A program made the position numbers and the translations under genes. 64,000 bases of DNA from Pseudomonadota bacterium (GTDB taxonomy: Bacteria > Desulfobacterota > Binatia > UBA9968): NCBI GenBank assembly GCA_021324155.1, contig JAJPJQ010000020.1:62001-126000 (forward strand), in the 5' to 3' direction. Shown here in pieces: positions 5,657 through 59,550 of this stretch (position 1 is the stretch's first letter; the number at the start of each line of letters is the position of its first letter). The notes under the pieces are model-generated. The model saw only the letters and a program-made list of their open reading frames with translations. It did not search any database and was not told where the DNA came from.

Positions 5657-6928
5657 ATGAAGATTACGTCTATCAAGGGCTTCGCCGACATTTTGCCCGG
5701 CGAGGTGGAAATCTGGCAATTTATCGAGGAAAAGGCGCGCGAAGTCTTCGGCGTCTATAATTTTTCCGAAATCCGCATTCCGATCGTCGAAAAAACCGAG
5801 CTGTTCAGCCGCTCGCTCGGCGAGACGACCGACATCGTCGAGAAGGAGATGTACACTTTCACCGATCAGGACGCGAAGGAGTCGCGCCTGACGCTGCGGC
5901 CGGAAGGCACGGCGGGCGTCGTCCGCGCCTACGTCGAATCGGAGATGTACCAGGTCGAGCCGGTCCGCAAACTCTTCTATTCCGGGCCGATGTTCCGGCG
6001 CGAGCGGCCGCAAAAAGGCAGGCAGCGCCAGTTTTATCAGATCGGGGCCGAAGTCTTGGGCCGCGCTGACGCGCTCGTCGACGCCGAGCTGCTGCTCCTG
6101 CTGAGCGATTTCTTCCGTCGGATCGGCCTCGAAGGCGTGACGCTTGAGCTCAACTCTTTGGGATGCGTGCAGTGCCGGCCGGCATATCGCGAGAAATTGC
6201 TCGCTTTTCTCCGCGAGCGCGCCGACCGACTGTGCGAGAATTGCCGCCGGCGTATGGAGCGGAATCCTCTTCGGGTCCTCGACTGCAAGGAGCCGTCCTG
6301 CATCGAGGCGACGCGAGACGCGCCGTCGATTCTCGATTATCTCTGCGAGGCGTGCAGGGAGCATTTCAATATCGTCCAGGAGCTCCTGCGGCAAAGCGAC
6401 GTGGCTTACAAGCTCAATCCGCGCATGGTGCGCGGTCTCGACTATTATTGTAGGACGACATTCGAGTGGACCAGTACGCAGCTCGGCGCGCAGAACGCCG
6501 TCGCCGCCGGCGGGCGCTATGACGGGCTGGTGGCCGATCTCGGCGGACCGCCGACGCCCGGGGTCGGCTTCGCCATGGGCATGGAGCGCCTCGTGCTGCT
6601 GCTTTCGATGCGCGAATTACGGCAGGCGCCGAGGCCGGCGTTGTTTCTCGTCTGGGTCGGCGACGCCGGGCGCGCATGGGCGTTTCCAACCGCCCACAGG
6701 CTGCGCCTGCGCGGCGTTAGCGTCGAGATGGAAGGCGAGAGAAAAAGCCTCAAGAGTCAAATGCGCCGGGCGGACAAGCTGCGCGCCCGCAACGTGATCA
6801 TCGTCGGCGATGAAGAGCTCGGCAAAGGCATTGCGGTGCTCCGCGATATGGACAGCAAAGAGCAGCGCGAACTCAGGCTCGAGGGCCTCGAGGACGAATT
6901 GGTGCGCAGGCTCGAAGCGCCGGCCTGA
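5657..6928 (+). CDS. hisS: Histidine--tRNA ligase
   Basis: A class II synthetase of 423 residues that charges tRNA-His. The start is MKITSIKGFADILPGE at 5657; the open frame runs further upstream into the amidohydrolase gene, which is a chance extension. Motif 2 is FRRERPQKGRQRQFYQIGAE, the histidine-A signature is RGLDYYCRTTFEW, and motif 3 lies in GVGFAMGMERLVLLL. The C-terminal anticodon domain ends near RRLEAPA. aspS follows 34 bases later, the hisS-aspS pairing common in many bacteria. Confidence 0.96.
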   Translation: MKITSIKGFADILPGEVEIWQFIEEKAREVFGVYNFSEIRIPIVEKTELFSRSLGETTDIVEKEMYTFTDQDAKESRLTLRPEGTAGVVRAYVESEMYQVEPVRKLFYSGPMFRRERPQKGRQRQFYQIGAEVLGRADALVDAELLLLLSDFFRRIGLEGVTLELNSLGCVQCRPAYREKLLAFLRERADRLCENCRRRMERNPLRVLDCKEPSCIEATRDAPSILDYLCEACREHFNIVQELLRQSDVAYKLNPRMVRGLDYYCRTTFEWTSTQLGAQNAVAAGGRYDGLVADLGGPPTPGVGFAMGMERLVLLLSMRELRQAPRPALFLVWVGDAGRAWAFPTAHRLRLRGVSVEMEGERKSLKSQMRRADKLRARNVIIVGDEELGKGIAVLRDMDSKEQRELRLEGLEDELVRRLEAPA

Positions 6929-6962
6929 CACTTGCCCGTCGATTCCGCACTTCGATTAAGCC

Positions 6963-8756
6963 ATGGACCGGATATTTACCGATCAACTGGGCACGTGGAA
7001 GCGCAGCCTCTACTGCGGCGAGCCGCGCGCCGATGCTGTCGGCCGTGAGCTGATTCTCGTCGGCTGGACCCAGCGCCGGCGCGATCACGGCGGCCTCATT
7101 TTCGTCGATTTGAGAGACCGCAGCGGGCTCGTGCAGGTCGTCTTCAATCCCGAAGTCGACGCCGCGGCCCACGAGAAGGCGAGGCACATCCGCTCCGAGG
7201 ACGTAATCGCCGTGCGCGGCGTGCTCGCGCGCCGTCCGCCCGAGACCGTCAATCCCGATCTCGCGACCGGCGAGGTCGAATTGCTCGTCCATGAAGTGCG
7301 GCTGCTCAACGCGTCCGAAGTGCCGCCGTTTCCCGTCGAAGACGAGAGCGACGCGACTGAGAACATGCGCCTGAAATACCGCTACCTGGATCTTCGCCGG
7401 CCGCGCAGCCTCGCTCCGCTCGTGCTGCGCTCGCGGCTGACGAAGCTGATCCGCGACTATTTTGACAGCCACGGCTTCATCGAGGTCGAGACGCCAGTGC
7501 TCACGAAAAGCACGCCGGAAGGCGCACGCGACTACCTTGTGCCGAGCCGTATGTACCACGGAAAATTCTACGCGCTGCCGCAGTCGCCGCAGCTCTTCAA
7601 ACAGATTTTGATGGTGGGCGGCCTCGATCGCTATTTTCAGATCGTCCGCTGCTTCCGCGACGAGGATTTGCGCGCGGACCGCCAGCCGGAGTTCACGCAG
7701 CTCGACGTGGAGATGTCCTTCATCCAGCCGGACGACATCATCGACGTCATCGAAGGCATGATGGTGCTGCTGTTCAAGGAATTGAAGGGCATCGATATGC
7801 CGCGGCCGTTCCCGCGCCTCTCGTGGGCCGAAGCCCGCGCGCGCTACGGCAACGACAAGCCCGACCTTCGCTTCGGGCTCGAGCTCAAAGATTTTTCCGC
7901 GTGCTTCGCCAAATCGCAGATCAAGGTCTTCGCCAACGTGCTCGCGGCCGGCGGCATCGTCAAGGGTATAGCGGTGCCCGGCGGCGCGAGCCTCTCGCGC
8001 AAAGAGCTCGACGACATGACTTCGTTCGCCACGAACTACGGCGCGAAAGGCATGGCATGGATCAAGCTCGCCGACGGCGAGTGGCAGTCGCCGATCGCGA
8101 AATTCTTCACGGACGTCGAGCGCGAAGAGATCGTTCGAATCACCGGTGCGAAGAGCGGCGATCTCATTTTATTTATCGCCGACAACGATAAAGTCGTGCA
8201 CGATTCGCTTTCCAATCTGCGGCTCTTATTAGGCGAGAAACTGGACCTCATCGACCGCAATCGCTACTCGCTCGTCTGGATCGTCGATTTTCCGCTGCTC
8301 GAATTCGACCCGGCCGAGAAGCGCTACGTCGCGGTGCATCATCCGTTCACATCCCCGTTAGACGAAGACCTGGCGCTCCTCGAAGGCGAACCGCTTAAGG
8401 TCCGCTCGAAGGCTTACGATCTCGCGCTCAACGGGATGGAAGTGGGCGGCGGCAGCGTGCGTATTCATCAAGTCGATCTGCAAAGGCGTATCCTCGAGCT
8501 GCTCGGCATTCGCCGGGAGGAAGCGGAGGCGAAATTCGGCTTTCTGCTCGAAGCGCTCAGCTACGGCGCGCCGCCGCATGGCGGCATCGCCTTCGGCATC
8601 GACCGGCTCGCAATGATCTTCTCCGGCGCACAGTCGCTGCGCGATGTGATCGCGTTTCCGAAGAGTCAAAAAGCCGTCTGCATGCTGACAGAGGCACCGA
8701 CGCCCGTCGATCCACGCCAGTTGCGGGAGCTCGGCATCAAGACGACAGGCGACTGA
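6963..8756 (+). CDS. aspS: Aspartate--tRNA ligase, probably the non-discriminating Asp/Asn type
   Basis: A 597-residue bacterial-type AspRS with an N-terminal OB anticodon-binding fold, a class II core and the inserted GAD domain. Motif 2 is FRDEDLRADRQPEFTQLDVEMSF and motif 3 is GGIAFGIDRLAMIFSGA. In the anticodon loop the sequence is RRRDHGGLIF with His42, where discriminating enzymes such as that of E. coli have Leu. A His here is associated with AspRS enzymes that also charge tRNA-Asn, which then needs GatCAB amidotransferase. That specificity is inferred from this residue; the enzyme identity is certain. Confidence 0.95.
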   Translation: MDRIFTDQLGTWKRSLYCGEPRADAVGRELILVGWTQRRRDHGGLIFVDLRDRSGLVQVVFNPEVDAAAHEKARHIRSEDVIAVRGVLARRPPETVNPDLATGEVELLVHEVRLLNASEVPPFPVEDESDATENMRLKYRYLDLRRPRSLAPLVLRSRLTKLIRDYFDSHGFIEVETPVLTKSTPEGARDYLVPSRMYHGKFYALPQSPQLFKQILMVGGLDRYFQIVRCFRDEDLRADRQPEFTQLDVEMSFIQPDDIIDVIEGMMVLLFKELKGIDMPRPFPRLSWAEARARYGNDKPDLRFGLELKDFSACFAKSQIKVFANVLAAGGIVKGIAVPGGASLSRKELDDMTSFATNYGAKGMAWIKLADGEWQSPIAKFFTDVEREEIVRITGAKSGDLILFIADNDKVVHDSLSNLRLLLGEKLDLIDRNRYSLVWIVDFPLLEFDPAEKRYVAVHHPFTSPLDEDLALLEGEPLKVRSKAYDLALNGMEVGGGSVRIHQVDLQRRILELLGIRREEAEAKFGFLLEALSYGAPPHGGIAFGIDRLAMIFSGAQSLRDVIAFPKSQKAVCMLTEAPTPVDPRQLRELGIKTTGD

Positions 8757-39146: not shown

Positions 39147-40304
39147 ATGGCCAAGGCGATGAATCAGCCTACCCCGCCGCGGCGCATCCTGCTCGTGGCG
39201 GGAGAGGCCTCGGGTGACCTCCACGGCGCTCATCTTGTCAGCGCGTTGCGCGAGCGCGCGCCGGACGTCGAGGTCTGGGCGGTCGCGGGCGAGGGCCTCA
39301 AAAAAGAAGGGGTGCGCGTGGTCTTCGACGTCGCCGATATTGCCGGCATGGGTCTGACGGAGCTCGCGGGAAATTTCACAAACCTGTGGCGCGCGTATTC
39401 ATCCGTGAAGAAAGTTTTGCGTGAGCAAAAGCCGAACCTGCTTGTGCTCATCGATTTCCCGGACTTCAACATGCGTATCGCGGCGGTCGCGAAGCGCCTA
39501 GGGATTCCGGTGCTGTATTACATCACGCCGCAGGTCTGGGCATGGCGCAAGCGTCGAGTAAAAAAAATGGCGCGCGCGATCGACCGCGCTGCGGTCGTTT
39601 TCCCTTTCGAGGCTGCTTTTTACGCGAACGCCGGCCTCAAAGCGGAGTTTGTCGGCCATCCTCTGCTCGACACCGCCCGGGCGACGCGCCCGCGCGAAGA
39701 GACGCTCGCGCGCCTCGGCCTCGACCCCGCCGTGCGGACGATCGCGCTGCTTCCGGGAAGCCGCCGCCGCGAGGTGGAGTATCACTTGCCGGTAATGCTG
39801 GAAGCGGCGGAGATGCTGAACCGCGAGAGCGCGCTCCAGTTCGTGCTCGTGCGCGCGAACACGCTTCCCCGCGATGCATTGGCGCGGCGCCTGGCCGGCG
39901 CGCGGGTGGCGGTTTCGCTCAGTGACGGCGACGCGTACAATGTGCTCGAGGCGGCCGATCTCGTCTGGACCGCCTCAGGGACAGCGACATTAGAGACGGC
40001 GTTGATGCTCCGGCCGATGGTCATCGTCTATCGTATGTCGCCGATGACGTTCGCGCTCGCACGGCGGCTCGTGCGGGTGGAGCATATCGGGATGGCCAAC
40101 ATCATCGCCGGTGAAAAGGTCGTGCCGGAGCTGATCCAAAACGACATGACGGCGGCGGCCATCGCCGCCGAGAGCCGGAAGATACTCGGCGACCGCGAGA
40201 CGCGGGAGGGAATGATCGCGAAACTGGGGCAGGTGCGGGCGCGCCTCGGCGAGCCAGGGGCCGCGTCGAGAGTCGCCGACATCGCGCTCAGCATGATGCG
40301 CTGA
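39147..40304 (+). CDS. lpxB: Lipid A disaccharide synthase LpxB
   Basis: A 385-residue GT19 transferase joining lipid X to UDP-diacylglucosamine. ILLVAGEASGDLHGAHLV, GMGLTEL, LIDFPDFNMRIA, YYITPQVWAWRKRR, LLPGSRRREVEYHLP and TASGTATLETALMLRPMVIVYRM are family hallmarks. It starts right after the oxidoreductase stop and precedes msbA by 17 bases. Confidence 0.96.
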   Translation: MAKAMNQPTPPRRILLVAGEASGDLHGAHLVSALRERAPDVEVWAVAGEGLKKEGVRVVFDVADIAGMGLTELAGNFTNLWRAYSSVKKVLREQKPNLLVLIDFPDFNMRIAAVAKRLGIPVLYYITPQVWAWRKRRVKKMARAIDRAAVVFPFEAAFYANAGLKAEFVGHPLLDTARATRPREETLARLGLDPAVRTIALLPGSRRREVEYHLPVMLEAAEMLNRESALQFVLVRANTLPRDALARRLAGARVAVSLSDGDAYNVLEAADLVWTASGTATLETALMLRPMVIVYRMSPMTFALARRLVRVEHIGMANIIAGEKVVPELIQNDMTAAAIAAESRKILGDRETREGMIAKLGQVRARLGEPGAASRVADIALSMMR

Positions 40305-40321
40305 GGCTCCGGAGGAGAGAC

Positions 40322-42076
40322 GTGCAAACTTACCGACGCTTGCTCAACTATTTGAGGCCGTACATCTGGCCCTACTTTACTCTGGCGATGCTGTGCATGG
40401 GGCTCTTCAGCGGCACGACCGCGCTTGTGCCGTTCATCGCCAAGCACGTCATCGACGACATCTTTACGAACAAGGACGTGGTGATGCTGCGTTGGATGCC
40501 TTGGATCATCATCGGCGTGTTCTCGCTCCGAGGGCTGGTGAATTTCGGCCAAGGTTACTTGAGCGACTACGTTGGGCTGCGCATCCTGAACGACATCCGC
40601 AACGCGATGAATCGCCATTTGCAGTCCATGTCGCTCTCTTACTTTCACCGGAACCCGACCGGAACGCTGATCTCGCGCATCTCCAACGACGTTGCGCTCG
40701 TGCGCTCGGCCTTGACGGATTCGGTCGCCTCGCTGATGCGCGATTCGATGTCGCTCATAGGACTGATCGGGGCGGCGTTCTATATGGACTGGTTCCTCGC
40801 GAGCATCGCGTTCGTCGTTTTTCCCGCTTCGGTTTATCCACTCACGCGCATGAGCAAGCGGATCAAGCGCTTCACGAAGAAAGGACAGATCGCCAAGGGA
40901 ACGCTGACGAACCTTTTGCAGGAAAGCATCCAGGGCAACCGCATCGTCAAGGCGTTCGGCATGGAGCAATACGAGATCAAGAAATTCGAGTCGGAGAACC
41001 GCCGCATTTTCAAACAGTCGATCCGCGCAAGCCGGACGCAGGGCATGATCAGCCCGGCGATGGAAATGCTCGCCGCGTTCGCGATCGCCGCCGTGCTCTG
41101 GTACGGCGGCTCAACCGTAATCGCCGGCGGGCGCACGCAGGGCGATTTCATGGGATTTATGGCGGCGATGTTTCTCCTGTATCAGCCCTTCAGGGCGCTG
41201 GCGAAAACTTATGCGGTCATACAGCAGGGGCTCGTCGGCGCGGAAAGAATTTTCGAAGTCCTGGACAGCGAAGAGGAGATCAGGAATGCGCCCAACGCCA
41301 AGCCGGCGCGGCGCTTTTCCGAGGCGATCGAGTTCCATGATGTGTCGTTTGGCTACGCGCGCAAGCTCGTCTTGAAAAATATCAATCTCAAAGTACGTGC
41401 GGGGGAAATGGTCGCCGTCGTCGGCGTATCGGGCGTCGGCAAGAGCACCCTCGCCGATCTCGTGCCGCGCTTCTACGACGTCACCTCGGGAAAAATCACG
41501 CTCGACGGCGACGATGTCCGCGACCTCACGCTGGAATCGCTGCGTGCCCAGATAGGCATGGTCACGCAGCACACCTTTCTCTTCAACGATACGGTGCGGA
41601 GCAACATCGCGTACGGCGACCCGGCGAAGGGCATGGAGCACATCGTCGCTGCGGCGAAGGCGGCGAACGCCCATGATTTCATTATGGCGATGCCGCAGGG
41701 CTACGACACGATCATCGGCGAGCTCGGGCTCAAGCTCTCCGGCGGTCAGCGCCAGCGGCTCGCGATCGCGCGCGCGATCCTCAAAAACGCGCCGATCCTG
41801 ATCCTCGACGAGGCGACCTCGTCGCTCGACGCCGATTCCGAGCGGCTGGTGCAGGAGGCGCTGGAGAATCTCATGGTGCAGCGCACGACGCTCGTCATTG
41901 CGCACCGCTTGACGACGATCCGCAAGGCGACGCGCATCGTTGTGCTCGTCGACGGCAGGATCGCGGAGGAAGGCACGCACGAGGAGCTCCTGGCGCTGAA
42001 ATCCGAGTATAGCCGGCTTTATACGCTGCAACTACTGGAAGAAGACGGCGCGGGCGAGGACAAGCTCCTGCACTAG
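40322..42076 (+). CDS. msbA: Lipid A export ABC transporter MsbA
   Basis: A 584-residue half-transporter with six membrane helices (about residues 20-310) fused to an ATPase. Walker A is GVSGVGKST, the signature is LKLSGGQRQRLAIARA and Walker B is ILILDEATSSLD. It flips core lipid A across the inner membrane. The GTG start follows GGAGGAGAGAC. It sits between lpxB and waaA, as expected for MsbA rather than a drug exporter. Confidence 0.93.
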   Translation: MQTYRRLLNYLRPYIWPYFTLAMLCMGLFSGTTALVPFIAKHVIDDIFTNKDVVMLRWMPWIIIGVFSLRGLVNFGQGYLSDYVGLRILNDIRNAMNRHLQSMSLSYFHRNPTGTLISRISNDVALVRSALTDSVASLMRDSMSLIGLIGAAFYMDWFLASIAFVVFPASVYPLTRMSKRIKRFTKKGQIAKGTLTNLLQESIQGNRIVKAFGMEQYEIKKFESENRRIFKQSIRASRTQGMISPAMEMLAAFAIAAVLWYGGSTVIAGGRTQGDFMGFMAAMFLLYQPFRALAKTYAVIQQGLVGAERIFEVLDSEEEIRNAPNAKPARRFSEAIEFHDVSFGYARKLVLKNINLKVRAGEMVAVVGVSGVGKSTLADLVPRFYDVTSGKITLDGDDVRDLTLESLRAQIGMVTQHTFLFNDTVRSNIAYGDPAKGMEHIVAAAKAANAHDFIMAMPQGYDTIIGELGLKLSGGQRQRLAIARAILKNAPILILDEATSSLDADSERLVQEALENLMVQRTTLVIAHRLTTIRKATRIVVLVDGRIAEEGTHEELLALKSEYSRLYTLQLLEEDGAGEDKLLH

Positions 42077-45969: not shown

Positions 45970-47142
45970 TTACGGGGTTCGGACCCCGCCTCCGGCCGCG
46001 TCTTTCGATAGGCGAAATCTTCGTAGCCGCCGCCCGGTTGCGTAGGCGATCAACGCGGGCAGATGTTCCACTCCACAAAGCCGCTCGACATATTTAACGA
46101 AGCCGGCGACGCTGGCTTTTGAACCCGCGGCGCTTTCCCTCCGACGATAATTGAACCAGTGAACCGGCAGGTAGCCAAGCGACTTTTTCCGATAATCGAC
46201 GGTTTTATATCGATACTCGACGCGATCGATCCATGCAGTCGGCGCGCTCTCGATCTCCCGTAGCACGCCGTCGGGAACCGGGGCACCGAACTCGTCAACT
46301 AAATAGCGCAGCGCCTCCTTCATCGGCAAGACGAGCCGCCGCGCATGCGCCTGCGCTGCGAGCCTTTCCCAGTCGAGCGCCGCGTCGGCGTTGATGATCG
46401 CCATCGCGTCGGCGACCCAGCGGAACGGCGCTAGCGGCTCCCAACGAAGCCCGTGGACACAGACATGCAGCAGGTGGTCGCTGGAATTGAGCGTTAGCGT
46501 GCGCACGCCGTGGACATCCACGGCGAAGGCGCCGCCCCAAAAGCTCAGATCAGCATCATCGTCGCAGCATTCGGGCATTACGTGCCAATGTAGATCCACC
46601 TGTCGTCCGGCGCGATCCACGAAGCATGCGGCATGGCCGGTCAATATGTAACTGTCGTGGAGGATTTCCGGCCATGCATCGGCGCGCGTCCACCCGGTCA
46701 CGGTCATGAACTCGATGGCTTTCAATGCCTGCGCGGCAGGAACAAGCACGTCGATATCCGCCATCGGCCGCACACCGTAGTCGCGGTAATAGAGCAGCAC
46801 CAGCGGCGCTCCCTTGAGAATGAGTGTCTCGATTCCCGCCGCGTGAAAGTCGCGCAAAATATCGGCTGCGCGCCTCAAAAGCATCTGGTTCGTAGACCAA
46901 TACGTACGGTAAATGTCTTTGAGGCCGTCGATCGCCGGATCGGCGATATCTTGGGAGCGGAGATTGCGGTAGAGCAGCGGAAGCATCCGCTTCGAAGCGA
47001 GGTCGAGATCGCAGCGATGGAGCGCCGGCTTCCATTCCGTCCACGCGGCGCGTGCCTCATCTCCGCGCGCGAGCGTCGCGCGCAGCAGCAGCTTCTGCTG
47101 AGGGGTGGGCCAGCAACTGCTTCCGTCGGCTCTCGGCTTCAT
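45970..47142 (-). CDS. NTP_transf_5-type nucleotidyltransferase
   Basis: A 390-residue member of the uncharacterised nucleotidyltransferase family PF14907. The core is TLILKGAPLVLLYYRDYGVRPMADIDVLV, with K110 and the metal-binding D129-I-D131. LHWHVMP and LHVCVHGLRW follow. Members occur near PqqD, HPr-kinase-like proteins and lasso-peptide genes, where tailoring of a peptide or glycan is suspected. It is the last gene of the five-gene operon and overlaps the glycosyltransferase by four bases. Its substrate is unknown. Confidence 0.85.
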   Translation of the reverse strand: MKPRADGSSCWPTPQQKLLLRATLARGDEARAAWTEWKPALHRCDLDLASKRMLPLLYRNLRSQDIADPAIDGLKDIYRTYWSTNQMLLRRAADILRDFHAAGIETLILKGAPLVLLYYRDYGVRPMADIDVLVPAAQALKAIEFMTVTGWTRADAWPEILHDSYILTGHAACFVDRAGRQVDLHWHVMPECCDDDADLSFWGGAFAVDVHGVRTLTLNSSDHLLHVCVHGLRWEPLAPFRWVADAMAIINADAALDWERLAAQAHARRLVLPMKEALRYLVDEFGAPVPDGVLREIESAPTAWIDRVEYRYKTVDYRKKSLGYLPVHWFNYRRRESAAGSKASVAGFVKYVERLCGVEHLPALIAYATGRRLRRFRLSKDAAGGGVRTP

Positions 47143-49418
47143 GGCGGTAGCGTGGAATTCTGCGTGGACCGCCGCGACGCCGCCCGGCGCATTGTCTCGT
47201 TCGTGAGCAGCCGCCGTGCCGCCTCAAAGCGTCGGTAAGCGGTCTCCGCTTCGCGGCGCTGTTGTTGAAGGCGCAGCGGCACTTTTCCTTCTAGCTCGCG
47301 AAGGCATTGCAGCGCGGCTTCCGCCGAATGTTCCCACGTAAAATTCCTCTGCGCCGTGCGTACGCCGGCGGACGCTTTGGCCGCGAGCTGCTTTTTGCCG
47401 CCGGCGAACGCTTCCTTTAAGGCACGCGTCAAATCCTCCACGCGGATTTCGCAAAAGTCCACGGCAGCGATTTCTTCCTCGATGCCGATCTTCATGGCGA
47501 AGCGCCGGTTGACTGGAAATCGAATCTGGAGCGCTCGCACCAGAATCGAAGTCTCTTCGGAGCAGAAATCGAGGCATGCCCCGCGGTTCGGCACGATCGA
47601 AGGTACGCCGCAGGCCATAGCCTCGAGAATCGGTAGACAAAATCCTTCCGCGCGGTAAGGGAAAACACCGGCATCGCAGGCGCGGTAGAGCGCCGCGAGC
47701 TCTTCGGCCGGCAGGAATTCGTCGATGTAGACGGTCTCCGGCGCCTCGGGATCGCGCATCGCGGCGGCGATAGTATCGCGATAGGTCGGTGCGTGAAAGG
47801 CATTCGCCGAATGATCTTTGATCACGAGGGCGACGTCGTCGTCTCGAGTAAACGCCCGGCGGTAGGCGGCGAGCAGGATGTCGAATCCCTTGCGAACCAC
47901 CGCCGTTCCGACGAAGAGGAAGCGGAACGATTTCTTCGTCGGCAACGAAAAATGCGGACCGTCAGGTCGAAAGACCGCGGCGTCGACACCATGCGGCACG
48001 ATGCGCACGCGCGCGGGATCGATTCCGCTGGCGATCGCCTGTTCGCGTATCCAGCGTGTGTGCACCCACAGCTGATCGAAGTCCGCGTTGATCTTATCGG
48101 CCCAGGCCGGCGGATAAGGCCCGAAATCGGAGGTCCTGACGGCCACCAGCGAGCCAATGTCCGGCGGCCGATAGGCCGTGAAATGTCGAGTGTAATCGTG
48201 GTGAACGGTAACATCAGGCAATTCGAGCGGAGCCGGGTCAAAGCTTGCGACGACGTCTCGTGCCGCAAGCTCCCGGCTCCAGCGAGTGTTGACGAGCGAA
48301 TCCGACTCCGTGCGCCCGGCGGCGCCGTAGAATGAGACAAACACAGGCGTCGCGAAGTTCGGACGCCGCCCACTGGCGAGGCGGCGCAGGCGACTTTCCA
48401 GTGCTGGGGTGGAATTCGCTTGGATAAAAGCGCGTGCGCGGTTTTTCCCGTCTTTCGCGTAAAGCATACGCAGCACCTCGGAATCGATCAATTCTCCGAG
48501 GCGATCTGCCCATACCTCTGTGTCGCGGAAAGCGCCGACTCGCATTGGGCCGTCGCCGAGAATTTCGCTAAGTCCACCGGTATCGCTCGCCAATATAGGC
48601 ACGCCGTTCGCCATAGCCTCGACCGCAAATCGTCCGAACGGCTCCGGCAGCAGCGACGGCACGAGAACGAGCTTTGCTTGCGCGAGCAGATTCTTGATCG
48701 TCAATCGTCCCGGCAAATAAAGATTTGACAGGCGCTCGATTTCCCCGCGATAGGTTAAATCGATGTCGGCACCCAAACTTCCCGCCAGCAGAAACCGCTG
48801 ATCGGGAAAGCGCTCGGCTAGGTGCAGAAAAATTTCCAAGCCTTTGTGGCGGTAGCCGCAGATGCCGGCTATGTACTCCGGTTGCTGCGCCCGGTCGAGC
48901 GCGATCTCATTCAGGTCGAAGTCGCCGTAGACGAGCTCGCAGCCGAGGTGATGCCTGCGCTCGTAATAATCCCGCAAATACTTCGAGCAAGCGAAACACG
49001 CGTCGGCCGACCGCAGGACGAAATCCGCTTCGGCCGCCGAAGGAAAGGCGTCATGGAGGCGGATGCCCCAGGCTTCACGCTCCGCAGCCGTCGGCGGGGA
49101 GAACTCGTAGCCGTGGAGATAGAGGGAGCAAGGGATGTCGTATCGCATGGCGACGCGAAGCGCGTCGGGCGCGCCGTGGAGCGCCCCGACGATAATGTCA
49201 GGGCGGTGTTCTTTCGCTCGCGCTTTCAGTTCCTCCATGTCGCGGTAAGCGGCGACTTCGACGTCGCCGACGGATTCGCGCACGGAAACTGGGTGACGGG
49301 ATAAAAGAATCGCGCGATGGCCGAAATCGCGTTGAAGCTTGCGCGCGAAGACGGCCGTCGTCATGAGGGCGCCGCCCAATGTACGAAACGCTCCGCCGAT
49401 AACGAAAAGGATCGTCAT
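47139..49418 (-). CDS. Tandem two-domain GT4 glycosyltransferase
   Basis: A 759-residue protein with two complete GT4 (GT-B) units. The first (about 1-365) opens ILFVIGGAFRTLGGALMTTA and ends with EPFGRFAVEAMANGVPILASDTGG (EX7E). The second (about 370-715) opens VFVSFYGAAGRTESD and has VGTAVVRKGFDILLAAY and EGFCLPILEAMACGVPSIVPNRG (EX7E). ATG 49418 is chosen because the frame upstream runs into the kinase gene. Both catalytic pairs look intact, so it may add two sugars in sequence. It is tightly packed between the kinase and nucleotidyltransferase genes. Confidence 0.86.
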   Translation of the reverse strand: MTILFVIGGAFRTLGGALMTTAVFARKLQRDFGHRAILLSRHPVSVRESVGDVEVAAYRDMEELKARAKEHRPDIIVGALHGAPDALRVAMRYDIPCSLYLHGYEFSPPTAAEREAWGIRLHDAFPSAAEADFVLRSADACFACSKYLRDYYERRHHLGCELVYGDFDLNEIALDRAQQPEYIAGICGYRHKGLEIFLHLAERFPDQRFLLAGSLGADIDLTYRGEIERLSNLYLPGRLTIKNLLAQAKLVLVPSLLPEPFGRFAVEAMANGVPILASDTGGLSEILGDGPMRVGAFRDTEVWADRLGELIDSEVLRMLYAKDGKNRARAFIQANSTPALESRLRRLASGRRPNFATPVFVSFYGAAGRTESDSLVNTRWSRELAARDVVASFDPAPLELPDVTVHHDYTRHFTAYRPPDIGSLVAVRTSDFGPYPPAWADKINADFDQLWVHTRWIREQAIASGIDPARVRIVPHGVDAAVFRPDGPHFSLPTKKSFRFLFVGTAVVRKGFDILLAAYRRAFTRDDDVALVIKDHSANAFHAPTYRDTIAAAMRDPEAPETVYIDEFLPAEELAALYRACDAGVFPYRAEGFCLPILEAMACGVPSIVPNRGACLDFCSEETSILVRALQIRFPVNRRFAMKIGIEEEIAAVDFCEIRVEDLTRALKEAFAGGKKQLAAKASAGVRTAQRNFTWEHSAEAALQCLRELEGKVPLRLQQQRREAETAYRRFEAARRLLTNETMRRAASRRSTQNSTLPP

Positions 49419-49419
49419 G

Positions 49420-50385
49420 TCACACGTTCGCGGACAGAAAACCGTCGAGTCGCTCCAAATCGTGGAGATCGCTGCTGAGCTGCAGACGGTAAGCCGGAAC
49501 GACTTCCACAAGTTCGCGCAGAAACCCGAGGTAGGCGCGGTAATCGTCGGCGCCGGCGAAGCGATGCGAGGCTTTAGTTTCGCGGATCACCTCGATCAGC
49601 GCCTGATGTTTGGACAGCGGAGTGATCGTGAAGCGCTCGCCCACATGGTTGAAAAACATTCGCCAGACGGGAAAGTCCGCGTGCGGCGCGGCCGAGAAAT
49701 GCGCGGCTAGACGCACTTCCTTCTTGAGTATGCCGCCGACCTCGCGCGGCTCGGCGGCGAGCGGAACGGGAAAGAAATGCCGCTCGGTTTTTTCCGTAAC
49801 CCGAAACGTTTCGCCCGAACCGCTCACGAGAAAGTCGCCATTCGATCTGCGCAGGATGAGCCGGTCTTCGCCAAGGACGGTGCCGCCGGAGCGAGCCAGT
49901 CGGACGGAAGCCGTGGTTTTCCCCGCGCCTTTACCGCCTAAAAATATGTGTACGCGGCCTTGAAAGCGAACTCCGGCGGCATGCAGCGCGAGACGGCCGA
50001 GAAAAAACAGAAGCTTGAATACGACTACCGTGACATGCACTTTTAAGTCGTATTCCGGAAGAAACGGCCGCCGCACGGTTACGAGAAAACGAGGCATCGG
50101 TTCGCGAAGAAAGGCCTCCGCGGTCAGCGCCTCCGTATGAATTTGCTTCGCCGACGGTGTGTCGACAATCAGCATGCCGTCCGATGGCACCGCCATGGGC
50201 GGCGGATTGGCTTCGGACTGCGACTGTTCGACGAAAACGATTTCTGCTTCGGGCGCCGCTCCGTTTGCCGGCGCCGGCGCGGCGACATTGCAGAAGATTT
50301 CCGCGATCGTTTCAGGGTACAAACTGCGGTCAAAGGAGACCTGCAACAGCAGGCTGCCGACATTCAAGCGCAACCGGCGCATCAC
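49420..50385 (-). CDS. HPr-kinase-like P-loop protein (HprK-related)
   Basis: A 321-residue protein with the HprK/P-like C-terminal core: LALHAAGVRFQGRVHIFLGGKGAGKTT (H135; Walker A 150-158, K156), then VLGEDRLIL, where E173-D174 replace the usual DD. True HprK phosphorylates HPr on Ser, but relatives act in lasso-peptide and HPr-rel-A/exosortase-type clusters. The N-terminal 100 residues show no known domain. It overlaps the peptidase gene in ATGA. Given its PqqD neighbour, phosphorylation of a peptide or the PqqD tail is more likely than of HPr, but this is inference. Confidence 0.83.
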   Translation of the reverse strand: MMRRLRLNVGSLLLQVSFDRSLYPETIAEIFCNVAAPAPANGAAPEAEIVFVEQSQSEANPPPMAVPSDGMLIVDTPSAKQIHTEALTAEAFLREPMPRFLVTVRRPFLPEYDLKVHVTVVVFKLLFFLGRLALHAAGVRFQGRVHIFLGGKGAGKTTASVRLARSGGTVLGEDRLILRRSNGDFLVSGSGETFRVTEKTERHFFPVPLAAEPREVGGILKKEVRLAAHFSAAPHADFPVWRMFFNHVGERFTITPLSKHQALIEVIRETKASHRFAGADDYRAYLGFLRELVEVVPAYRLQLSSDLHDLERLDGFLSANV

Positions 50386-50875: not shown

Positions 50876-51262
50876 TTACTCTCCGCTCAGGATGAGTTTT
50901 TCCAGCTCGCCGAATTTTGTGAGTCGCGGCGCTTCATAACCGCCGGCCAGAGAGGATGTCTCGGCGACGTTAGGGCTGGCCGCTCCGTTACCGGGGGCTA
51001 GGATTACCAGGTCCTCGCGTATGGCGGTTTGAAGAAATCCGTCAACGTCGGCGGCAACGCTGTCCCGAACCTTGCCGTAGCGCAGCGCGATTTTTTCGGC
51101 GAGCTCGTCGGCGGCGACGGGCCCCTCGGCGAGGCGAAGCCAAGCGTACGTGCCGCTCGCGTTCAGCCCGTAATAGGCCGAAGTCTCAAAGTGGATGATA
51201 ACGGCTTCACCGTCGGTGATTTCCCATGTAACTTGTTGTGTATTGATGGCGTAGTACTGCAT
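50876..51262 (-). CDS. PqqD-domain (RRE) protein with lasso-leader-like C-terminal tail
   Basis: A 128-residue protein. Residues 1-90 form a PqqD/RiPP-recognition winged helix (AVIIHFETSAYYGLNASGTYAWLRL, then RYGKVRDSVAADVDGFLQTAI). After a Gly/Ala/Ser linker (91-108) comes a tail: YEAPRLTKFGELEK, ending LILSGE. This keeps the spacing of lasso leader peptides, Y109-x2-P112-x-L114-x2-F117-G118, which RRE domains bind. The fusion of reader and leader in one chain is unusual. It is the first gene of the operon and lacks an obvious ribosome-binding site. Ser126 near the end could be a kinase target. Confidence 0.85.
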   Translation of the reverse strand: MQYYAINTQQVTWEITDGEAVIIHFETSAYYGLNASGTYAWLRLAEGPVAADELAEKIALRYGKVRDSVAADVDGFLQTAIREDLVILAPGNGAASPNVAETSSLAGGYEAPRLTKFGELEKLILSGE

Positions 51263-53539: not shown

Positions 53540-54283
53540 ATGTCCAGCTGGGTATGGGGCGAGGTTCCGGAAGGATTCGATAAAATTCGCGCCGGCGGTC
53601 GCATGGCCCTCATACGCGCGGATACCGCGGCGCAGGCTGACGTGATGACATCGCCCGATGCATTAGGCGAACATACCGCCGCTTTCGGCCGCGGCGCACT
53701 CGCCATGCTGCCTCTCGACGGCGGCGACGCGTTGGTGCGTCGCTACCGTCACGGAGGGGCCCTGCGGGCACTGACCGGAGATTTATTTTTCACATGGCCC
53801 CCGCGTCCGTTCCGCGAGCTCGCGCTCACCGAGGCCGCGCGCGCGCGCGGCGTTCCGACGGTGGAGGTCCTCGCGGCGCTCGTCGAGCCGGTCGCCGGCC
53901 CGGTTTACCGCGGCTGGCTTGTCACGCGACGGCTTGAGGGCGCACGCGATCTCTGGGAGGCCGTCCGGTCCGTGGCTCCGACAGCCAAACGGGCCCACTT
54001 GGAAGCGTCAGCGCGCGCCGTGCGCGCGATGCATCGCTGTGGTATCATTCACCGCGATCTTAACTTGAAGAATATTTTAGTGCGCTCGGAAGGCGGAACT
54101 GCACGGGGTTATATCATCGACTTCGATAAGTCGCGCCTGTCTCCGGCGGAAGTTCCTCCGCCGCACGCGCAAAATAATCTCGAACGCTTGAAGCGTTCGA
54201 TCAACAAGCTCGATCCGGAGCGGCGGCATATTTCCGCCGCCGACTGGGAGCTGTTCCTGCGCGCCTACGGCGAGGCCGGATGA
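53540..54283 (+). CDS. 3-deoxy-D-manno-octulosonic acid kinase (KdkA-like)
   Basis: A 247-residue member of the WaaP/KdkA small-kinase family. LVRRYRHGGALRALTGDLFF is the characteristic KdkA opening, HRCGIIHRDLNLKNILV holds the catalytic Asp, and YIIDFDKSRLS supplies the metal-binding Asp. It likely phosphorylates Kdo in the inner core. It overlaps waaC-like by four bases (ATGA) downstream. Confidence 0.88.
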   Translation: MSSWVWGEVPEGFDKIRAGGRMALIRADTAAQADVMTSPDALGEHTAAFGRGALAMLPLDGGDALVRRYRHGGALRALTGDLFFTWPPRPFRELALTEAARARGVPTVEVLAALVEPVAGPVYRGWLVTRRLEGARDLWEAVRSVAPTAKRAHLEASARAVRAMHRCGIIHRDLNLKNILVRSEGGTARGYIIDFDKSRLSPAEVPPPHAQNNLERLKRSINKLDPERRHISAADWELFLRAYGEAG

Positions 54284-55320
54284 AATTCGATCCGCAAAAG
54301 ATTCTCATCGTATTGCACGGATCGATCGGCGACGTTACGCGCGCGCTGCCGCTCGCGAACCTCCTCCGGCGGAGTTTTCCCGCCGCGTGGATCGCCTGGT
54401 CGGTCGAGGCACCGGCGATGCCGCTTGTCGAGCGCCATCCCGCCATCGATGAGGTTATTCTCTTCGACCGGCCGAACTGGCGCGCCAGCGTGCGGCCGTT
54501 TCTCCGGCGCATCCGCTCAGGCGGCTTCGATCTTGTTCTCGACCTGCAGCGGCATCTCAAGAGCGGTTTCATCAGCTGGTGGTCGCGGGCGCCGCATCGC
54601 ATCGGCTTTGCGCCGCGTGACGCCAAAGAGCTCAATTGGCTGTTCAACAACCACCACATCGCGCCGGCGGCGGAACGCGAGTCGAAGCTCAACCATTACC
54701 TCAGATTCGCCGATTTTCTCCTGCTGCAAACCAGCGTTATCGAATGGAACTTTCAGCTTTCTCCGGAGGAAGAGAAGGCTGTCGAAAAGTTCGCGCGCGC
54801 GATCGGCGGCCGATTCGTCGCGTACTGCGTCGGTGGACGTTGGGAAAGCAAGCGCTGGTTTCCGCACGAGGCGGCGCGAAGCGCAATGGAAGTCAACCGC
54901 CGCTACGGCCTCGCGGTCGTTCTGCTCGGCGGCACGGAAGACCGGCCGTTCGCGGCCGAAATGGAACGGGCGACGACGGTGCCGCTCGTTGATCTGACCG
55001 GGCAAACGTCTCTGCGCGAGGCGATCGGCCTGCTCGCGCGCGCAGAGTTTTCCGTCGGGCCCGATTCTGGGTTGATGCACCTTTCCGCTGCTGTCGGCAC
55101 GCCGGTTGTGTCGCTCTGGGGGCCGACGGATCCCGAGCGCACGGGTCCATACGGATTCGACGATCTCGTCGTCCGCGGCAGCGCCCCGTGCGCGCCGTGT
55201 TACGTGAAAATGTGCCCGATCGACCGCATGTGCATGGAGTCGATCAAGAGCAGCGCCGTTTTGGTGAAAATCGAGGCGGCGCTCGCCCGCAAAGGAACTC
55301 TGCGTGACGCCACCGGATAA
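54280..55320 (+). CDS. waaC: GT9 lipopolysaccharide heptosyltransferase (WaaC-like)
   Basis: A 346-residue GT9. KILIVLHGSIGDVTRALPLANLLRRSFP opens it; VGGRWESKRWFPHE and VGPDSGLMHLSAAVGTPVVSLWGPTDPERTGPYG are the donor-site motifs. A Cys-rich end (CAPCYVKMCPIDRMCM) is present. Most similar in pattern to heptosyltransferase I, which acts before WaaF, but assignment of I versus II is a guess. Its 3' end overlaps the next kinase by 17 bases. Confidence 0.85.
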   Translation: MKFDPQKILIVLHGSIGDVTRALPLANLLRRSFPAAWIAWSVEAPAMPLVERHPAIDEVILFDRPNWRASVRPFLRRIRSGGFDLVLDLQRHLKSGFISWWSRAPHRIGFAPRDAKELNWLFNNHHIAPAAERESKLNHYLRFADFLLLQTSVIEWNFQLSPEEEKAVEKFARAIGGRFVAYCVGGRWESKRWFPHEAARSAMEVNRRYGLAVVLLGGTEDRPFAAEMERATTVPLVDLTGQTSLREAIGLLARAEFSVGPDSGLMHLSAAVGTPVVSLWGPTDPERTGPYGFDDLVVRGSAPCAPCYVKMCPIDRMCMESIKSSAVLVKIEAALARKGTLRDATG

Positions 55321-56155
55321 TTATCAGATCCGGCGTGACGGCAACTGGAGACTGCGCGTGCAGCCGGAGGCATGGAGCGGTCCTCTGTGGTCCGAGATTC
55401 GCGCGCGGATCGCCGAGACCGCGCCGGACAAACATCCGCGCACGTTGCGTCTAACCGGCGGCTATTATCTAAAGATCTATTCGCCGCCGAAAGGCGCGGC
55501 ACGTATCAAGGATGTCATGCGCCGTTCCAAGGCGATGCGCGCGCTGAAACAGACCGATGCACTGTCGCGGCTCGGCTTTCACGTACCGCCGGTAGTCGCG
55601 GCGGGAGAGGAGCGCGCCAGCGGTTTTTTGCGCAACGCTTTTCTCCTCATGCGCGAAATCGAGGGCCAGCCGCTGATACAGGTCTTGCGCGAGCGCTTCG
55701 TACCACCGCTCGAAACGCCGGAGATCACGCGCAAACGACGTTGGCTTTCGCGGCTCGCCGCCGAGATACGGCGTATGCACGTGAACGGATTCGTTCACGG
55801 CGACCTGGTCCCGTCGAACGTCTTCGTCGGCTTCGACGCCGACGAAGATGCGATATTTTATTTTATGGACCACGACCGGACGCGTCGATATCCGCGCCGT
55901 CTTCCGCAGTGGCTCTGGCGGCGGAACCTTGTGCAGCTGAATCGCATCGTTCTGCCGGGCGTCTCGCTCCAGGATCGCATGCGCTTTGCGCGCGTTTACT
56001 TCGACAAAGCGCGCTGGGGCCCTCGCGAGCGCCGGCTCATTCGCTGGCTGGAGCGAAAAACCCGCAGGCGGCGCAAGGAATGCGAGCGCGTCGAGGCGAA
56101 AGTCAGTTTTCGGGAGCTCATGCGATGGAATGGCCCGTTCGCAAAGAATCTGTAG
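55304..56155 (+). CDS. Lipopolysaccharide kinase InaA/WaaP family protein
   Basis: A 283-residue small kinase starting at GTG 55304. LTGGYYLKIYSPPKG is the ATP-lysine region, NGFVHGDLVPSNVFV the catalytic loop and FYFMDHDRTRR the metal site. It is a second LPS kinase, distinct from KdkA. The C-terminus is very basic (WLERKTRRRRKE), consistent with membrane-surface work. It overlaps the PMT-type transferase by 31 bases. Confidence 0.82.
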   Translation: MTPPDNYQIRRDGNWRLRVQPEAWSGPLWSEIRARIAETAPDKHPRTLRLTGGYYLKIYSPPKGAARIKDVMRRSKAMRALKQTDALSRLGFHVPPVVAAGEERASGFLRNAFLLMREIEGQPLIQVLRERFVPPLETPEITRKRRWLSRLAAEIRRMHVNGFVHGDLVPSNVFVGFDADEDAIFYFMDHDRTRRYPRRLPQWLWRRNLVQLNRIVLPGVSLQDRMRFARVYFDKARWGPRERRLIRWLERKTRRRRKECERVEAKVSFRELMRWNGPFAKNL

Positions 56156-57618: not shown

Positions 57619-58732
57619 GCGCCTCGAGTTGCGGGGCGGAACCGAACGAATTCTCTATCGCACGGCGGAGGGGCTGCGCGACCGCGGCCATGAGGTGCAT
57701 CTCTTTTGCGGCGAATTCGTCATAGATCCGCCCCCAGGGACCTTCGGCCATCGCGTTCCATCGCTGCGCTGGCCGCGGACGGCGCGGCTCCTGACCTTCG
57801 CGTGCTTCGCGCCGGGCTTCATTGCGCGGCATCGCTGCGACGTGGTGATGAGCTTCGACCGCCTTGCGTCGCAGGACATCTTTCGGAGCGGCGGCGGGCC
57901 GCACCGGACTTTCCTCGGCAAGATGCGGCGCGCAGAGAATTTCTCGCGCAGGCTGTGGTACGGTATTTCTCCCTATCATCGTGCGGTGCTGGCGATCGAG
58001 CGGCGTCAGATGGAGAACGGCGGCTCCAAGAAGATCATCGCCGTTTGCGAGCAGATCGCGCGCGAGATCGTCGAAGCTTATGACGTGCCGCCGTCCAAGG
58101 TCGAGGTCCTCCATAACGGCATCGATCTCGAGCGCTTTCATCCGCGACGCCGCGACAACGAGGGACGCAGGCTCAGGGAGGAGCTCAACGTGCCGCCGGA
58201 CGCGCCGGTCGCGCTCTTCGTCGGCACCGGCTTCCGCCGCAAAGGGCTCGACACACTGCTCCGACTCTGGAAGTCCGACGAGTTCAGAAATATTTATCTG
58301 ATCGTTGTCGGCCATGACGCAAAGCTCTCCCACTACCGGAGCCGGTGGGCTCGGAAAGAGATCATCTTCGCGGGCGCGCAGCGGCTCGTCGAAAACTATT
58401 ATGCAGCGGCCGATCTGCTGGTCCTGCCGAGCATCCAAGAGGCCTTCGGTAATGTTGCTCTAGAAGCGCTGGCGTCGGGCGTCCCCGTCGTCACCAGCGC
58501 GGGGGTAGGGGCCCTCGATCGCGCCGATGCGGATCTCCGCGAGGGCTTGCTGGACGAGGTCGACGATCAAAACGAGCTCAAATCGAAGGTCGTGCGTTTC
58601 CTCGATAGGGGCCGCTGGCCGGAGCTTTCGAGCTCGGCGCGGCGAACGGCGGAGCGCTACTCCTGGGAAAACTATTTCGCCGGCCTGGATCGAATCATGA
58701 AGCAGGTGGCCGCAGGCCGCGAGTCGGCATGA
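57596..58732 (+). CDS. GT4 glycosyltransferase (WaaG-like)
   Basis: A 378-residue GT-B enzyme. MKIGLAHKRLELRGGTERILYRTAEGL is like WaaG and related core glucosyltransferases. LFVGTGFRRKGLDTLLRLW lies at the domain hinge and SIQEAFGNVALEALASGVPVVTSAGVG holds the EX7E pair. It likely adds the first outer-core sugar. It overlaps the PMT gene by 23 bases and the next kinase by four. Confidence 0.88.
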   Translation: MKIGLAHKRLELRGGTERILYRTAEGLRDRGHEVHLFCGEFVIDPPPGTFGHRVPSLRWPRTARLLTFACFAPGFIARHRCDVVMSFDRLASQDIFRSGGGPHRTFLGKMRRAENFSRRLWYGISPYHRAVLAIERRQMENGGSKKIIAVCEQIAREIVEAYDVPPSKVEVLHNGIDLERFHPRRRDNEGRRLREELNVPPDAPVALFVGTGFRRKGLDTLLRLWKSDEFRNIYLIVVGHDAKLSHYRSRWARKEIIFAGAQRLVENYYAAADLLVLPSIQEAFGNVALEALASGVPVVTSAGVGALDRADADLREGLLDEVDDQNELKSKVVRFLDRGRWPELSSSARRTAERYSWENYFAGLDRIMKQVAAGRESA

Positions 58733-59550
58733 CGAACGATTTTCGCTTAGTGGCCGAGCGCGGCGTATCGGGCTGGATGAGAAAAGATCTGTCGCCGGAT
58801 TTCCTCTCCGATTTCGGCCGCGACCCGGATGCATTTTTGCGCGGCGGCGGATCGAAAGTCCTGAAGAGCGTCGCGAGGTCCACCGTCGTCCGCCGCGAAG
58901 CATTGCTTCCGTCGGGATCGGGCGCAATTGTCATCAAATATTTTCATCCCGAGTCCGTATGGCGTCGCATCGCTTCGTCGGCTCTGCCGTCGCCCGCCGT
59001 GAGAGCGCTGCGCGCTGCTCTTTTGCTCGAAGCGCTCGGCGTGAAGACCGCGCGTCCGCTGGTCGCCGTGCGGGCCGAAAAAAATCGCGGTGCGAGTTAT
59101 TACATCAGCGAAGAAATCACCGACAGCCGTTCGATGCGCTCCTTGCTGATCGAGATTCAGAGAGAGCTTCCGCCAAAAGAAGCGCGCTCGGCCCGCCGCC
59201 GGCTGCTGACGGGGGCGGCCGAATTGTTCTACTGCTTGCACGCCGCGCGCATCTATCACCGCGATCTCAAGGCAGGGAACATTCTCGTCCGCGGCTGGCA
59301 GACGCCTGAATGGAAGATGATCCTGGTAGATCTCGACGGGCTTACGCGGATGCGGCGGCTGTGGCCGTCGCGGAGGATCAAAAATTTGGCCCAGCTCTGC
59401 CGTATCCGCAGGTGGACGCCGCGGGATCGAATTTATTTCTTGAAACAATATTGCGACCGCTTCGGCATGACAAAGGCAGATCGCAGGCAACTCGTGCGGC
59501 GCGTTCTCGAGAGCTGCCGGGAGCGGCTGGAAGGGCCGTCGCGCCGTTAA
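58729..59550 (+). CDS. Lipopolysaccharide kinase InaA family protein (second copy)
   Basis: A 273-residue kinase. IVIKYFHPESVWRR holds the ATP lysine, LHAARIYHRDLKAGNILV the catalytic loop, and MILVDLDGLTRMRR the metal-binding Asp. It is the third LPS-type kinase of the cluster. The first 60 residues are not recognised. ATGA overlap with the upstream GT4 supports the start. The target, heptose or Kdo, cannot be told. Confidence 0.84.
   Translation: MTNDFRLVAERGVSGWMRKDLSPDFLSDFGRDPDAFLRGGGSKVLKSVARSTVVRREALLPSGSGAIVIKYFHPESVWRRIASSALPSPAVRALRAALLLEALGVKTARPLVAVRAEKNRGASYYISEEITDSRSMRSLLIEIQRELPPKEARSARRRLLTGAAELFYCLHAARIYHRDLKAGNILVRGWQTPEWKMILVDLDGLTRMRRLWPSRRIKNLAQLCRIRRWTPRDRIYFLKQYCDRFGMTKADRRQLVRRVLESCRERLEGPSRR

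Follow-up and report, generated by a model that had tools for sequence, protein, structure and literature searches.

RREs are usually viewed as adaptors that fetch a separate precursor peptide. The locus analysed here raises the question of what such a domain does when a leader-like peptide forms the end of its own chain. The window, a stretch of 64,000 nucleotides of Binatia DNA, harbours an ORF of 128 amino acids (50876-51262, minus strand) whose product consists of a PqqD/RRE domain and, joined to it by a linker, a tail (Table 1). The sequence-only reading of this ORF had claimed the Y-x2-P-x-L-x2-F-G spacing of lasso leaders for the tail, a Gly/Ala/Ser linker joining it to the domain, and a chain ending in LILSGE with no core. 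The spacing was found to be exact in residues 109-128, the linker was recovered at residues 91-108 (with Asn as well) and the translated chain indeed stops at LILSGE, a core peptide being absent after the tail. Pfam model PF05402 (PqqD) spans residues 19-86 with 50.1 bits, against a gathering cut-off of 23.4, and the genome as a whole has one PqqD match above the cut-off and three weaker ones below it.

Table 1 The RRE-tail gene and the four other genes of its operon, in window positions
Feature	Position	Strand	Remarks
RRE/PqqD domain, residues 1-90	50993..51262	-	PF05402; closest PDB folds are lasso B1-leader complexes
Asp72 codon (groove residue)	51047..51049	-	Co-variation with tail Tyr; aligned to LppB D70
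Linker, residues 91-108, Gly/Ala/Ser/Asn-rich	50939..50992	-	High column entropy; AlphaFold2 pLDDT 71 (block 91-100) and 75 (block 101-110)
Leader-like tail, residues 109-128, YEAPRLTKFGELEKLILSGE	50879..50938	-	NF033521 below cut-off; predicted strand 114-117
Ser126 codon, 17 residues past Tyr109	50885..50887	-	Proposed phospho-acceptor, by analogy with LppA S3
S24/S26 signal-peptidase-I-like protein (SpI-like), 160 aa	50382..50864	-	PF00717 25.0 bits, cut-off 23.3; TIGR02228 28.6 bits, below cut-off
HprK-like kinase, 321 aa, Walker A GGKGAGKTT	49420..50385	-	TIGR04355 23.7 bits, cut-off 200; homologues adjoin SpI-like genes
Two GT4 glycosyltransferase domains, single chain	47139..49418	-	PF00534 in two stretches; probable ATG at 49418
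NTP_transf_5 nucleotidyltransferase-like enzyme, 390 aa	45970..47142	-	PF14907 132.9 bits

The RRE-tail gene is the first of five genes on the same strand, with overlaps of 4 bases or short gaps between them. The operon is embedded among plus-strand genes of an LPS locus, encoding LpxK, an epimerase, a heptosyltransferase (above the NCBIfam cut-off of TIGR02195) and three kinases of the Kdo/WaaP family (53540-54283, 55304-56155 and 58729-59550). A promoter and terminator scan gave no more than shuffled sequences did. The five-gene run contains no MsbA-like exporter, and one ABC profile match lies on the opposite strand at 40115-42073. The name of the HprK-like kinase rests on NCBIfam scores below their cut-offs, and the canonical HprK profile gave no match to this protein. 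The SpI-like protein keeps Ser31 and Asp84 and has Arg69 in place of the catalytic His. PDB sequence searches returned no relative of the window NTP_transf_5 protein or of an HprK-like protein from a tailed locus (L049) at E<=0.1, of the window SpI-like protein at E<=1, or of a B2 protein discussed below (L102) at E<=0.01.

Scoring residues 105-128 with a lasso-leader model had been proposed as a check. NF033521, the NCBIfam lasso leader model, does match residues 109-123 (E 0.033, 18,950 models), but with 14.2 bits it stays under the curated cut-off of 19, which makes the match suggestive rather than an assignment. When the own genome was searched in six frames with this model, the tail came out first (E 0.151) and the runner-up followed at E 0.214; sub-threshold matches were also obtained in 7 of 14 control genomes. 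With so close a runner-up and with matches in control genomes, this model alone leaves the tail within chance. It is homology that lifts the tail above chance, since its aromatic residue, Pro and Leu are kept in 80 distant relatives while the linker is variable. In the PDB the window tail, searched by itself, gave no match, and the only match of a tail profile there, tektin-3 (E 0.17), was rejected as chance.

These relatives had to be reached in steps. A first scan of genome contigs with the window protein gave no match, and close homologues were not found, the best identities in separate comparisons being 33 % and 38 %. Searching 58 genomes (own included) with the window protein gave matches in 11 of them at E<=0.01. 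The tail was also covered in 6 of the 13 foreign places, five of which continue to DPIHEV or DPVHEV (e.g. FEPPHLEKFTDMQELILLDPIHEVDETGWP) and one to DPPTPG. A profile built from the window protein and six other tailed proteins was run against 148 class genomes, the own one among them, and at E<=1e-10 gave 61 places in 46 genomes; in 17 of these places the match extends to profile position 128 or further, where the tail lies. A profile of eight tailed proteins yielded 153 relatives from 84,980 species genomes, of which 80 were retained and read. Record titles, mostly MAG names, place these 80 in about 15 phyla; one record, titled Klebsiella pneumoniae (L120, CAMBZJ010000003.1), looks mislabelled.

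Each of the 80 has an aromatic-x2-P tail continuing to DPIHEV...GWP. The aromatic residue is kept in 80, Pro in 79 and Leu in 65; in the extension the His of PIHEV is kept in 80 and the Val, Gly, Trp and last Pro in 78 each. Linker columns mostly have an entropy of 3.2-3.8 bits (lowest 2.8), and across these distant homologues conservation is much stronger in the tail than in the linker, a comparison that the sequence-only reading had named beforehand. Conservation of the stretch DM[QE][ED]L[LI]L[LVA]D, including an Asp at +18, reflects selection by the search pattern, which fixed these positions but left those of the aromatic, Pro, PIHEV and GWP free. No Ser or Thr is invariant in DPIHEV tails; position +9 is Thr or Ser in 67 of 80, and the pattern-fixed Asp at +18 is followed by Pro at +19 in 80 of 80. 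The window protein shares with this family the aromatic-x2-P-x-L tail after a linker. It differs in lacking DM and the entire DPIHEV...GWP portion, in ending with LILSGE and in having a GT4 partner, no GT2 profile match being present in the window.

Tail matches occur in 7 of 395 genomes of the phylum, in eight places whose open frames measure 145-288 aa. Five loci (L004, L029, L030, L031 and L032) have a tail of a second type, YxxPxLxxYxDMxxxLALDPPxPG-like, and form a starred clade of five within the class. A cyanobacterial plasmid (L149, pCRI9333.04 5896-8559) encodes a PqqD protein that shares 55 % identity with a tailed relative and adjoins a nucleotidyltransferase and an HPr kinase, the annotation consisting of domain names only. 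The strings DPIHEV and LLLLDPIH are absent from the open-access PMC literature, and no report of an RRE-precursor fusion was found there.

The sequence-only reading had suggested that the protein may bind its own or a partner's tail. AlphaFold2 (59 rows) gave the window protein a mean pLDDT of 88.7, with 87 for tail residues 111-120, which include the predicted strand, and 55 for residues 121-128. A canonical relative scored 96 over the block 111-120, 75 over the next ten residues (121-130) and 52-63 further on. In both models the tail appears as a separate element after a poorly predicted linker, and not, as had been considered, as part of the folded PqqD core. The five top Foldseek matches are chains of 5v1u/5v1v, a lasso B1 protein with bound leader. 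In VIA the closest solved folds of the window model were likewise lasso B1/RRE proteins, namely TbiB1 (5v1v and 5v1u, Z 13.0 and 12.9) and TfuB1 (6jx3, Z 11.4), PadeB1 also being named. Both models matched chain B of 4wd9 (NisB with NisA leader; Z 9.4 and 9.3). These alignments end at model residues 121 and 127 and at chain residue 1020, and a NisA-leader query matches residues 992-1006 (E 0.24), the end of the 1006-residue chain sequence; judged by these range ends, the tails overlay the bound leader.

In the 2026 LPP (Linear Polyphosphorylated Peptides) structures, D70 of LppB hydrogen-bonds the leader Tyr (PMC13381572), and a link between a groove Asp and a tail Tyr was looked for because of this contact. 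When 90 tailed proteins were aligned to fragments of TbiB1 and PbaB1, Asp72 of the window protein fell in the column matching LppB D70; the match was made via TbiB1/PbaB1 and spacing, LppB not being among the rows. TbiB1 has Asp in this column and PbaB1 Gln (Q79 of PMC13381572). The groove Asp is present in 13 of 16 proteins with a tail Tyr, in 1 of 71 with Phe and in 1 of 3 with Trp. Among 372 column/residue tests this link ranked first by a wide margin, with p 7e-12, the runner-up reaching 9e-5. The columns of Asn34 (LppB N33; 5/16 Tyr against 9/71 Phe tails) and Phe76 (LppB F74; 7/16 against 48/71) showed no link to the tail. Starred branches provide two independent pairs for the co-variation, with 0.9 changing the same way, 0 the opposite way and 1.1 without difference. 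On the best tree, itself unresolved, there are 10 pairs, of which 7-8 go the same way, with 0 opposite in 198 of 200 draws. The PqqD tree (59 rows, 40 of the 80 tailed relatives) is poorly resolved and the window row is a long branch without starred placement; its four tail labels can be explained by 4 changes, compared to 17.7 when labels are shuffled. At the level of the aligned sequences the groove varies together with the tail that the same chain carries; of all single results of the analysis this is the strongest.

Models, PDB matches and co-variation together indicate that the tail very probably fills the protein's own leader groove or that of its twin. A tail that reaches into the groove of a second copy would give a domain-swapped dimer, which could act as a dimeric scaffold for surface-glycan enzymes, and the LPS setting of the cassette (LpxK, Kdo/WaaP-type kinases, heptosyltransferase) would suit such a role. 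The co-variation and the monomer model fit cis and trans binding alike, and the linker measures about 18 residues. The monomer model, however, gives the tail a pLDDT of 87 without any partner, and we infer that binding is in cis, the swapped dimer being improbable.

The operon most resembles that of the LPPs (Popov et al. 2026, PMC13381572). As described there, LPP systems likewise combine a discrete PqqD-type RRE, an SpI-like peptidase, an HprK-like kinase and an NTP transferase in one operon, include an MsbA-like exporter and are often situated in a polysaccharide locus; they also share a YxxP leader and a groove Asp, the hold of the groove on the leader being predicted for the window protein. 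Their precursor LppA is a separate peptide with the motif YxxPxVLxHQxIxFETxxS, cleaved after T-1, and its S3 lies 18 residues after Y-16. Set against that description, the window gene set, taken within the five-gene run, equals the LPP core minus the separate precursor and the exporter: leader and RRE form one chain, a GT4 protein stands where LPP has the exporter, and the SpI-like protein has Arg for the catalytic His.

A lasso peptide cluster was rejected. The B2 transglutaminase-like protease PF13471 has 0 matches in the own genome (G000) at E<=0.001, and none of the 12 Asn_synthase-type cyclase matches of this genome is on the window contig (C35). No other model matched as many of the 59 tailed proteins scanned as the two lasso B1 models, each of which matched every one of them at E<=1; the window protein scores below the cut-offs of both. 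Compared to lasso systems the window lacks PF13471, a cyclase on its contig and a core, and has the leader fused to B1. In paeninodin and pseudomycoidin (PadeK, PsmK, PsmN) an HprK-like kinase phosphorylates a C-terminal Ser, and in pseudomycoidin an NTP transferase is present too and hexoses are added (PMC9266682); the substrate there is a separate lasso peptide. The PqqD chaperones of HPr-rel-A (TIGR04353), SynChlorMet (TIGR04248) and WgkC (NF050069) have the PqqD domain in common with the window protein, the first two also having HprK-like partners by their NCBIfam model names. Among these three models only TIGR04248 matches the window protein, with 20.4 bits against a cut-off of 100.

The reading that we favour, with a rough probability of 55 %, is that the window protein is an RRE fused to its own leader which works as a self-loaded carrier rather than giving rise to a released peptide. 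Tyr109-x2-Pro112-x-Leu114 would fold back, add a strand to the RRE and fill the leader groove, and the LILSGE end would project from it as a substrate tethered to the domain. Ser126 may then be phosphorylated by the HprK-like kinase, whose gene lies two genes downstream, and the phosphate would receive sugar from the NTP_transf_5 enzyme, the GT4 protein or both; the reported precedents are the tail of paeninodin, with phosphate, and that of pseudomycoidin, with phosphate and hexose. This putative chemistry is drawn from the gene context and from the papers on LPP, paeninodin and pseudomycoidin. The modified end would probably stay on the RRE, because the leader is covalent with it and the SpI-like partner lacks the catalytic His. 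Several observations were counted against such a carrier. Ser126 is at +17, where LPP has S3 at +18; Ile124 occupies position +15, the place of T-1, where no Thr is found; the tail end is predicted with low confidence; and DPIHEV tails have no invariant Ser/Thr.

The gene neighbourhoods of other SpI-like proteins and kinases bear on the question of release. Weak tblastn similarity links the window kinase to only some tailed loci (e.g. L068, E 1e-4), and homologues of this kinase were found in 9 of the 395 genomes searched in the phylum, the own one counted. Larger stretches were available for seven of the eight others; five (L156-L160) contain an SpI-like gene and a tail-less PqqD, and two (L161 and L162) are without an SpI-like gene. 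An SpI-based search matched 6 of 145 genomes (own included) and added a locus (L163) with SpI, kinase, tail-less PqqD and NTP_transf_5. The catalytic His is kept in 9 of 11 SpI-like proteins compared by eye, one of these nine (L158) having Cys for Ser. The two others are the window protein, with Arg, and its nearest homologue, from G114 (42 % identical), with Tyr. The latter has no adjoining tailed RRE in the stretch examined; it shares its open frame with a radical-SAM-like segment, CNLACRMC (L151, G114:C237, 347-1795). From these sequences the missing His fits a cleavage that was given up once the leader had been fused to the RRE, two cases being few, and an S24-type protein with Arg for His might still be active.

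Alternatively, the tail may not be a substrate at all. It could be an autoinhibitory plug or docking handle that closes the groove until a partner displaces it, be it the kinase, the nucleotidyltransferase or a precursor peptide encoded elsewhere. The near-invariance of DPIHEV...GWP (H 80, G 78, W 78 and P 78 of 80) is unlike a variable RiPP core and would be expected of such an element, as would the lack of an invariant Ser/Thr in these tails and of an SpI-like frame and an own B2 in their loci; the Asp72 co-variation is compatible with any groove-filling role. A partner peptide was however not apparent. In the own genome no separate leader-like peptide outscored the tail by NF033521, which models lasso leaders and not those of LPP, and no other one was found by pattern in the 3.4-kb L001. 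The tail as a standalone precursor was rejected too: all 108 tail matches in the examined loci fall in PqqD frames (106 assigned by pattern, L064 and L032 by eye; loci overlap, so that the matches are not independent). Since LPP precursors can be 35-200 aa and carry another motif (PMC13381572), this search for a precursor is not exhaustive, and the plug or handle is a serious though rather unlikely alternative to the self-loaded carrier.

That the window tail is a decaying remnant of a DPIHEV tail, the RRE working (or not) without it, can be judged from a genome of the same family (G003). Its syntenic site, between a heptosyltransferase (57 % identical) and an epimerase (71 %), holds an RRE with the full DPIHEV tail, a different HprK-like kinase, three GT2 domains and an NTP_transf_5 protein 55 % identical to the window's. 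The full tail at this site, set beside the lack of DM and DPIHEV...GWP in the window, is what a remnant would predict. In the window protein, nevertheless, the frame is open and the groove-filling motif is kept along with its Tyr-Asp pair; no trace of DPIHEV is seen in the three frames downstream, and a frameshifted DPIHEV tail was rejected on this ground. Its PqqD domain is 31 % identical to the syntenic one and 20-38 % to others, so no closer. The kinase, peptidase-like and glycosyltransferase partners differ as well, pointing to a swapped module, and decay is hardly likely. Because tail and kinase/GT differ together between G003 and the window while NTP_transf_5 stays, the sequences suggest that tail plus kinase/GT form one exchangeable module.

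The neighbours of the tailed relatives were counted in 77 of the 80 loci, with at least 1.5 kb downstream (three were dropped for short flanks), searching up to 7 kb with profiles seeded from the counted loci themselves. Downstream are an HprK-like kinase in 72, a GT2 glycosyltransferase in 67 and NTP_transf_5 in 44, and an ABC exporter follows on the same strand in 29 of 77. Kinase and GT2 are encoded in one chain in 11 frames (L063, L069, L070, L085, L086, L088, L100, L101, L111, L114 and L128), which ties phosphorylation to glycosylation. The examined flanks of the 80 tailed loci contain no SpI-like frame, and B2 only in L102, where it adjoins a second, tail-less PqqD. In this Bacillota MAG (L102 2883-6210 and 8001-8477) a tail-less PqqD-B2-HprK-NTP_transf_5 set is followed, some kilobases further along, by a tailed RRE set. 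Outside the 80 tailed loci the B2 profile matched 11 more frames, representing one place counted twice (L035/L138) and nine loci with only tail-less PqqD. Among the loci examined the lasso-type peptidase accompanies tail-less RREs, and no leader peptidase was found for DPIHEV-tailed RREs.

The one exception is a second fusion, the place counted twice. In G094, a genome of the same class, an RRE is fused to a leader and a core-like segment (L138, G094:C32:30000-44000, 6295-6804, minus strand). Its tail, YAPPRLVAYASVAQLTVGSEKSG..., matches LppA at two places, with Thr at +15 (T-1) and Ser at +18 (S3), and its neighbours are B2, a weak HprK match, NTP_transf_5 and an adjoining Wzz/tyrosine-kinase gene. 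Since the PqqD tree places this RRE inside a starred set of otherwise tail-less RREs, RRE and leader were probably joined more than once, the G094 case having kept, by its sequence, both the cleavage residue and a peptidase.

A broader hypothesis, which we regard as tentative, is that RRE-leader fusions in about 15 phyla are self-loaded carriers building a protein-bound phospho-glycan for surface-polysaccharide priming or transfer, with the window protein as a module-swapped form. HprK-like kinase, NTP_transf_5 and glycosyltransferases would then act on a fixed C-terminal segment presented by the RRE. The RRE, leader, kinase and nucleotidyltransferase are each known already; their covalent union without release, and its breadth, were not found in the open-access PMC literature. 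A common RRE class with its own leader, a near-invariant tail and no adjoining leader peptidase found would break the scheme of precursor, adaptor and release. Such fusions would also escape precursor-finding tools, as no small precursor gene exists to be found. The finding makes the role of HprK-like kinases and NTP_transf_5 enzymes in polysaccharide loci testable, and the natural Tyr/Asp and Phe/non-Asp pairs are ready-made mutants.
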